Below are positions 1,025-1,581 of a stretch of DNA of 37,922 bases, in pieces. The notes beneath the pieces are model-generated. The model saw only the letters and a list, made by a program, of their open reading frames with translations. It was not told where the DNA came from and ran no database searches. Within the stretch, counting starts at the first letter, position 1. Each line of letters opens with the position of its first letter. Location of the stretch: NCBI GenBank assembly GCA_023356535.1, contig JAKQYF010000019.1:1-37922 (forward strand), written 5' to 3'. The stretch comes from Trichodesmium sp. MAG_R03. Its GTDB lineage: Bacteria; Cyanobacteriota; Cyanobacteriia; Cyanobacteriales; Microcoleaceae. The translations under genes and the position numbers were made by a program.

Positions 1025-1290
1025 TTGTTAAAAGTACCTCTAGCTAAAGCATCCAGTGAAACACTGAAATTTATTTTTTTCCCGAACCTTGAAAGAGCAA
1101 CCTTGAGACCTTGTTTTTTGGTCAAACAGGCTAAAAGTTATGAATAGTTCTGAATTAGTTATCAAGAAACTAGGCTAGAGTATTGACTTAATAAAAAAAT
1201 AATGATATTAATGGTATGGAATAGAAACAAATATACCAACTCCCGAATTATTTATTTGTTTTAAGTTAATCTTAAAATCCTGACAAATAT
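1025..1290. other. Intergenic stretch, no gene seen
   Basis: No plausible reading frame. The sequence is AT-rich, with a short AGTACCTCTAGCT string near 1034 that recurs near 26860 and (inexactly) 23690. Nothing else is supported. Confidence 0.5.
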
Positions 1291-1345
1291 TACCGAAAAA
1301 TTGGGTTTAAAGCCTCGCCCTTCTAGGGCGACTTTTTAGTTGATT
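1291..1345 (+). mobile_element. Left-end tag and hairpin of a HEARO/IscB-type (IS200/IS605-like) element
   Basis: The tag CCGAAAAATTGGGTTTAAAG is followed by a perfect 7-bp hairpin (TCGCCCT at 1315-1321, loop TCT, AGGGCGA at 1325-1331) and a T-run. Subterminal hairpins like this mark the ends of elements moved as single strands by Y1 transposases. The same tag, AAATTGGGT, recurs at about 2152 and 27792, and each time HEARO-like sequence follows about 90-125 bp further on. No transposase is present. Confidence 0.5.
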
Positions 1346-1396
1346 TTTTTTCACAGGTCATGTTATCATGGTTTTTAGTTCACAGGAAATATATTA

Positions 1397-1551
1397 GTCG
1401 CGGGTGGGCAATCCGAGACAAAAAACGGACGGGTCGGCAAGTGTAAGACTACTGCCAAAGTAGCGGCAGCCCGTGAAACGTCAACCCGCCGGGGAGCTGC
1501 GGCTCGGTTGTTACCCAGTGCCTTTAGGCCGGGGAGGATCTCAAAATTAGA
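1397..1551 (+). ncRNA. Stand-alone HEARO / omega-RNA-like structured RNA
   Basis: A compact GC-rich island in AT-rich DNA with interlocking helices. GCGGGT 1400-1405 pairs with ACCCGC 1484-1489. ACGGG 1429-1433 pairs with CCCGT 1470-1474. GGCA and AGT at 1436-1442 pair with ACT and TGCC at 1448-1456. CCGAG 1413-1417 can pair with CTCGG 1503-1507 as a pseudoknot, and GCC-TTTA-GGC forms a small hairpin at 1520-1529. The pattern, including GGCAAGTGT and CCCGTGAAAC, matches my recollection of HEARO RNAs, the omega-RNAs of IscB nucleases. In those systems the guide is the roughly 16 nt just 5' of the core (here about 1380-1396). No iscB frame follows, so this would be an orphan. An RNA-encoding right end of a TnpB element is the main alternative. 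Confidence 0.62.
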
Positions 1552-1581
1552 CTTTCTTATAATTATAGATACATAAGAAAG
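1552..1581. other. 9-bp inverted repeat after the structured RNA
   Basis: CTTTCTTAT (1552-1560) and ATAAGAAAG (1573-1581) form a perfect stem around a 12-nt AT loop. It could end transcription of the upstream RNA, but it is AT-rich and no T-run follows, so this is weak. Confidence 0.3.

Follow-up and report, generated by a model that had tools for sequence, protein, structure and literature searches.

The window analyzed here is a 37,922-nucleotide stretch of Trichodesmium sp. MAG_R03 (the whole of positions 1 to 37,922 of contig JAKQYF010000019.1). At 1290-1544 it carries a 255-bp miniature IS200/IS605 element without a nuclease gene. From left to right the element consists of TTAC, the left end (LE) with the leader of tnpB, the final 40 tnpB codons, and the right end (RE), whose last four letters are TCAA. 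Its features, all on the plus strand, are as follows.

1290-1293, plus strand: TTAC target site 5' of the element and predicted TAM for TnpB (from the own-genome copies and the empty site in the relative G006)
1294-1382, plus strand: left end and leader of tnpB (LE-to-ATG comparison with L066, L067, L068, L070, L317, and L370)
1315-1331, plus strand: LE hairpin TCGCCCT-TCT-AGGGCGA, seven pairs, perfect (scored as terminator-like; one found vs. 0.5 in shuffles)
1340-1369, plus strand: weak promoter-like TTGATT - 18 nt - TATCAT with TG before the -10, in line with the reRNA (9/12 matches)
1383-1386, plus strand: fusion joint left by loss of tnpB codons 1 to about 360 (where homology to tnpB 3' coding DNA starts)
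1388-1507, plus strand: remnant of the 40 codons at the 3' end of tnpB (residues 361-400), original stop changed (frame 1385 translation compared with the TnpB P0001)
1396-1544, plus strand: TnpB reRNA scaffold (right-end RNA), by alignment with 22 tnpB-type right ends
1428-1431 with 1479-1482, plus strand: scaffold helix including the supported pair 1431-1479 (pair counts)
1514-1534, plus strand: RE terminal hairpin (pairs 1514-1516/1532-1534 and 1520-1522/1527-1529)
1541-1544, plus strand: TCAA right cleavage site, last 4 nt of the element (all own-genome copies, 18/20 copies in G006, 17/19 in G001)
1545-1560, plus strand: predicted guide, 16 nt of 3' flank (position by analogy with the ISDra2 reRNA)

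The element is almost certainly a deletion derivative of a tnpB element that retains a TnpB reRNA, i.e., a non-autonomous MITE of the IS200/IS605 type. The copy in the window follows the LE and leader of intact elements to about 1382, where the match stops (by eye) about 11 nt short of their tnpB ATG. It then continues from tnpB codon 361 (frame 1385 NILVAGGQSETKNGRVGKCKTTAKVAAARETSTRRGAAAR compared with NILVAGGQSETLNGHGGKHETTAKVAAACEMSTRRGATAR in P0001). Read through the GC-rich island that follows, frame 1385 gives NILVAGGQSETKNGR..TTAKVAAARETSTRRGAAAR, which is the C-terminus of TnpB. By sequence comparison, the island overlaps the 3' end of tnpB and extends to the right end, as a TnpB reRNA does, and it is accompanied by a variable 3' flank at the guide position and a TAM-like TTAC 5' of the LE. 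By the logic of the ISDra2 reRNA, the scaffold would be 1396-1544, the guide 1545-1560, and the TAM TTAC. In most tnpB-type right ends of relatives, the right hairpin is preceded by GGTAGGAATCCC (the GAAT motif and the tnpB stop, corresponding to 1508-1516). In most of the own-genome copies listed it is replaced by TTGTTACCC or TGGAAACCC, which alters the stop as well as the right end's presumed guide motif.

RNA family and neighboring genes

An earlier note on this DNA had read 1291-1551 as an orphan HEARO, the omega-RNA of IscB nucleases, next to a tRNA gene. Much of what it described is present. The GC content of 1400-1544 is 60.7% compared with 35.2% for the whole window, and only a fraction of 0.00013 of 145-nt windows (5-nt steps) are as GC-rich. 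The left-end tag begins with TTAC at 1290 and is followed by the perfect seven-pair hairpin. A tRNA gene lies downstream, and no iscB or other nuclease frame follows the island: none of the ORFs listed is nuclease-like, and the next one on the plus strand starts at 2687. An element does occupy the proposed extent, with boundaries at 1290 and 1544.

The RNA family is a different one. RF02033 has no match in 1200-1660 (cmscan, E<=10), the outcome that had been named beforehand as refuting HEARO, and among the seven places listed for this model over the whole genome at E<=10 none is at 1290-1544. A GC-rich, structured-looking island beside an end hairpin would suit a HEARO with a 5' guide, and so would two low-scoring HEARO-like matches at other places in the genome (56.1 and 49.3 bits; the cut-off is 83). 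The island, however, encodes the TnpB C-terminus, and in relatives it forms the right end of tnpB elements; HEARO can be discarded with near certainty. A search of the genome for the IscB RRXRR domain gave no match, but all 14 controls were silent too, and it is hence uninformative. The two HEARO-like places below the cut-off (G000:C11:5302-5511, L001, and G000:C35:36550-36766, L002, both in the own genome) are possible remnants of IscB omega-RNAs. Other Rfam families gave six sub-threshold matches in 1200-1660, all unrelated (snoRNAs, a leader, an lncRNA exon, and two other RNAs). A host small RNA or a tRNA-linked regulatory RNA is rejected because the same 255 bp recurs at more than 90 unrelated places.

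The idea of an orphan guide RNA stands in part. The island would be a transposon guide RNA without a nuclease gene, possibly acting in trans, and it is the family (TnpB right-end RNA) and the polarity that change. Since the right part is a TnpB reRNA, the guide would be about 16 nt on the 3' side (1545-1560) and not on the 5' side; the stretch proposed before, about 1380-1396, falls on the fusion joint of the deletion. A search of this predicted guide against the genome returned no target beyond chance level: with up to three mismatches, TTAC plus the predicted guide finds the locus itself and one chance-level match, and the reversed control also finds one.

The neighboring gene is tRNA-Arg(CCU) at 1650-1968, which is split right after the anticodon by a 245-nt group I intron (1687-1931; RF00028, 68.7 bits). 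ARAGORN calls the spliced exons as tRNA-Arg(cct) and calls none in the unspliced window. The locus has a match in 7/7 genomes of the genus, including the own genome. In the relative G001 (contig C518; L219, L277) a mini-element (mini) is found at another position, just downstream of the same intron-bearing gene. Further along the window, at 2141-2450, a second LE copy (TTACCATAAAATTGGGTTTAAAGCC...) is followed by a different insert (CCCGCCAAGTCTCATAAATACTG...TTTCAGGTCAATGA). A similar insert is found behind the LE in L320, L345, and L346, perhaps a second mini family. On the minus strand at 538-942, a 134-aa open frame, transposase-fragment-like by eye, sits between inverted repeats (263-314 and 972-1023) that are 71% complementary.

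Copies, target site, and parent element

At least 92 distinct copies of the element exist in the own genome (95 before removal of three duplicates, with eight partial BLAST rows dropped). A search with 1285-1560 finds many places in the genome, and the fully listed ones show 88-94% identity (best 40 of 339 candidates scored). The pattern TTTAAAGCC-N205..235-GAGGATNTCAA is found at 89 places and the reversed pattern at none. TTAC stands at the start of 85/92 own-genome copies. TCAA ends 92/92, a count in which 60 of 90 loci had been picked by a pattern requiring TCAA. The 16-nt right flanks are highly diverse, 130 being distinct among 132 copies from four genomes. The median pairwise identity among the 92 copies is 87%. 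The nearest neighbor of a copy has a median identity of 95% and a maximum of 98%, and thus no very recent burst is seen.

In G006 the same locus by the same tRNA-Arg gene lacks the element, and ..AATATTAC runs straight into AATTAG... This exact empty site places the insertion 3' of TTAC without target duplication, as is found for MITEs of this group. The element also has end hairpins in common with an autonomous element, no gene, and many copies, as PATE-like MITEs of IS200/IS605 do.

The autonomous form is found in relatives. LE and RE matches lie 0.9-1.5 kb apart in five of them (G002, G007, G012, G013, and G023), and in G012 the LE, a 400-aa TnpB (P0001), and the RE are present in one element (L066). 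P0001 scores 341.6 bits against the NCBIfam model guided_TnpB (cut-off 100), matches three Pfam OrfB/TnpB models, and aligns with the solved ISDra2 TnpB at E 2.3e-70. In six tnpB-bearing copies the LE and leader to the tnpB ATG measure 102-106 nt. TnpB with 85-87% identity and no inner stops is encoded in G002, G003, and G004.

The own genome differs in this respect. Among the matches listed there (best 150 of 460 candidates), every TnpB of the P0001 family has stops or is partial. The assembly has 486 contigs and is 93% complete, and identical repeats can be lost from it. From these broken or partial matches, the guide system in the own genome is probably dormant, and its guides may at present be silent; the picture is one of many orphan guides spread over the genome. 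A 412-aa open TnpB (C15) was considered as a user of the guides and set aside, since by eye it is from a different family, and no right end of similar sequence accompanies it in the stretch read. Among 14 Y1 transposase matches examined in the own assembly, no intact LE-associated TnpA was found: the genes beside the same LE are all broken or partial, and two intact Y1 genes (L102 and L105) are without such ends within the stretches read.

Transposition by TnpA in trans is the most likely mechanism and is well supported by the anatomy; possibly TnpB, also in trans, helps to retain the element by way of the reRNA. The course that we infer is as follows. An internal deletion in a tnpB element would have removed codons 1 to about 360 and joined the LE and leader to the complete reRNA part. 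A Y1 transposase provided in trans would have spread the product, in single-stranded form, to sites 3' of TTAC. The reRNA, if transcribed, would draw its guide from the DNA to the right of TCAA (1545-1560). TnpB supplied in trans would bind it and cut TTAC plus guide, which is the empty site left by excision, and repair from a sister copy would then put the element back.

Deletion joints and retention of the reRNA scaffold

Left ends were collected with a 31-nt LE pattern over the contigs of the genome collection. At least 74 were found, from few genomes (Trichodesmium and Okeania assemblies and one Microcystis). The 74 listed comprise 62 minis with scaffold, four with tnpB, four with the LE alone, three cut at the end of the stretch, and one with a distal right end. 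No mini consisting of the ends only is among them. In 57 of the 62 minis the 5' edge of the scaffold comes directly behind the LE (52 by BLAST and five by eye, due to an insertion). The other five (L320, L331 twice, L345, and L346) have other sequence first and the scaffold more than 200 nt from the LE; 57 is therefore the count for a scaffold directly behind the LE. The right end is reached by 50/62, several others being cut at the end of the stretch. The scaffold is shortened, and not by the end of the stretch, in L337, L349, and L354, i.e., in three or more copies. In five Okeania minis (L326, L333, L338, L356, and L363) an insertion (..CACGCCTCCTCCGGAGGAG..) is present near the start of the scaffold.

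The minis have several joints. In the Trichodesmium type (132 copies read from four genomes, 119 anchored), the joint lies 10-13 nt upstream of the AGTCGC edge (1396) in 112/119 copies, 9 nt in three, 14-15 nt in three, and 0 in one. In Okeania minis it lies 0-4 nt upstream of the edge, a match of chance length that means only that the joint is at the edge. Joints of single copies are found at 26 nt (L332), 27 nt (L306), 29 nt (L299), and 58 nt (L304), and those of two further copies at 6 and 8 nt. The two genera thus have different joints, nearly all of them 0-58 nt upstream of the 5' edge of the reRNA. L299, L304, and L306 come from a scaffold-biased search, and L332 and L354 from the LE-only sample.

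Note that these counts leave out the 25 of 212 minis without an anchor and, because copies were anchored on the 5' edge of the scaffold itself, cannot by themselves reveal joints inside the scaffold. In an anchor-free recheck, the edge is present in 132/132 Trichodesmium-type copies (chosen by near-full-length BLAST), in 15/17 further copies, and in 56/62 minis of the LE sample. Of the remaining six in that sample, five show the edge by eye and then an insertion, and L331-1316 is without it. The two exceptions among the further copies are the decayed G005 copies L308 and L309, in which the first 19-24 nt of the scaffold are not recognizable and the joint may lie inside the scaffold; apart from these, no clear joint within it is seen.

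As far as sampled, the minis of the two genera are mostly leader plus complete reRNA. The lack of ends-only minis and the joints near the edge are what selective retention predicts. They are short of proof because there are only two large families, which may be a founder effect, and three single copies come from the biased search. Two founder deletions yield nearly all minis. Under this alternative, which comes close to being probable, the identity of the element is the same and the reRNA stretch is passenger DNA: the transposase needs the end hairpins only, and two or a few deletion products happened to keep the tnpB 3' end and then to be amplified. The derivation from two families, the copies with a shortened scaffold, and the lack of an intact TnpB among the own-genome matches listed fit it well. 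It is less at ease with the absence of ends-only forms among the 74 left ends listed and with several joints falling nearly all just upstream of the reRNA. Another alternative, which is unlikely, is that the Y1 transposase or replication needs right-end DNA beyond the terminal hairpin, so that the stretch is kept for its DNA and not its RNA. Uniform retention would then be explained without TnpB. In the IS608 and ISDra2 systems, however, short terminal hairpins reportedly suffice for the transposase.

In line with the passenger reading, the diversity among own copies is 0.084 in the scaffold compared with 0.090 in the LE interior, so no strong constraint is visible. Shared variants are mildly rarer at sites that are conserved in tnpB-type right ends (34/88, vs. 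18/34 at other sites). The 22 right ends used for this comparison remain after leaving out seven of 29 (mini-type or <80% identity), and an intact tnpB is verified for only part of them. In the core hairpin 1446-1469, 22 variants are private and 6 are shared (p 0.0057, for a block chosen after inspection of the data).

The earlier note had seen a multi-helix RNA-like island, whose helices rest on comparison with relatives. The fold energy of 1390-1551 is no lower than that of dinucleotide shuffles (z -0.41), so that a multi-helix structure from energy alone is not above chance, and the RNAalifold consensus on the mini alignment is low in energy and uninformative. The pair 1431-1479 is conspicuous for compensatory change in the minis: among 132 copies it is A-T in 69 and G-C in 54, and it is paired in 125 compared with 94.6 expected after shuffling. 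On a tree each column changes 6 times and the pair 10 times, which means that few switches coincide on branches. The selection tests within Trichodesmium minis are weak, as the passenger reading would have it.

For the copy in the window it is plausible that a promoter lies in line with the reRNA, and the set-wide test is mixed. Two promoter-like sites occur in 1285-1700 compared with 0.8 in shuffles. A score of 9/12 is reached by 36/87 Trichodesmium segments compared with 10% in block shuffles, many top sites being a different hexamer pair. In Okeania it is reached by 2/31 compared with 10% in shuffles, and a score of 8/12 by 26/31 compared with 34%. A clear -10 is absent in many minis (31/92 of the TCC type).

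Our inference, which falls short of proof, is that the minis keep the reRNA so that TnpB can use it in trans. On this selective reading, which we hold tentatively as possible rather than probable, the minis would be selected "leader plus guide RNA" transposons: only those deletions that keep the reRNA would succeed, with the TnpB of relatives cutting empty donor sites and thereby copying the minis back. Such minis would, by the same tentative reading, parasitize TnpA as well as TnpB, and an incoming TnpB would find about a hundred orphan guides in the genome ready for use.

Comparison with known systems

Whether nuclease-less remnants borrow the TnpB of intact relatives to survive is the question raised by these elements. 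If gene-less derivatives depend on the reRNA, they would be natural comparative evidence that TnpB homing is important in nature and acts in trans. Trichodesmium and Okeania would in that case lend themselves to a test, since some species have intact TnpB copies and others have about a hundred orphan guides for which TAM and guide are predicted. For annotation, note the risk of confusing islands of this kind with HEARO or with small RNAs of the host.

Stand-alone IscB omega-RNAs are reportedly found in Ktedonobacter, where many guide RNAs have no adjoining nuclease gene. The present minis resemble them in this, but IscB omega-RNAs belong to another nuclease family and have a 5' guide, and their model RF02033 is without a match here. 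Another parallel is the IS608 type of insertion, with TTAC on the left and TCAA on the right. The target and right cleavage tetranucleotides are the same, and insertion is 3' of TTAC without duplication. Unlike in the IS608 type, the GAAT before the right hairpin, which is common in the tnpB-type ends of relatives, is GTTAC or GAAAC in most of the own minis listed. Gene-less IS605 elements have been noted in papers on TnpB. No paper describing reRNA-bearing MITEs was found by title or opening of the abstract, in a search with most subscription journals outside it, and no priority is claimed.

For ISDra2, it is reported that the TnpB-bound RNA is about 150 nt long and consists of the tnpB 3' end and the right end, with the last 16 nt or so from the flank, that the TAM equals the insertion target, and that TnpB is proposed to protect IS605 elements from loss on excision (Karvelis 2021, PMC8612924). 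The predicted reRNA of the minis agrees with it in composition, in length, in the guide from the 3' flank, and in a TAM that equals the target (PMC8612924). Unlike in ISDra2, tnpB is reduced to its last 40 codons, the target is TTAC compared with TTGAT, and the reRNA is predicted from sequence. Palindrome-associated transposable elements (PATEs) of IS200/IS605 are likewise short and gene-less, have IS605-type ends, and are thought to be moved in trans (PMC7290912). PATEs are described as having palindrome ends only (PMC7290912), whereas the minis add a complete reRNA and reach at least 92 copies in one genome. Many short gene-less elements are also found in another cyanobacterium, Anabaena sp. 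90, whose 147 MITEs (77-541 bp) are filed as type II and reported to show no similarity to its own IS ends (PMC3542288). In contrast, the parent tnpB element is identified here. In kind, the element is an ordinary MITE of an IS200/IS605 tnpB element. Less ordinary is that, as sampled, the minis of two genera are mostly leader plus complete reRNA, without any ends-only form among those listed.
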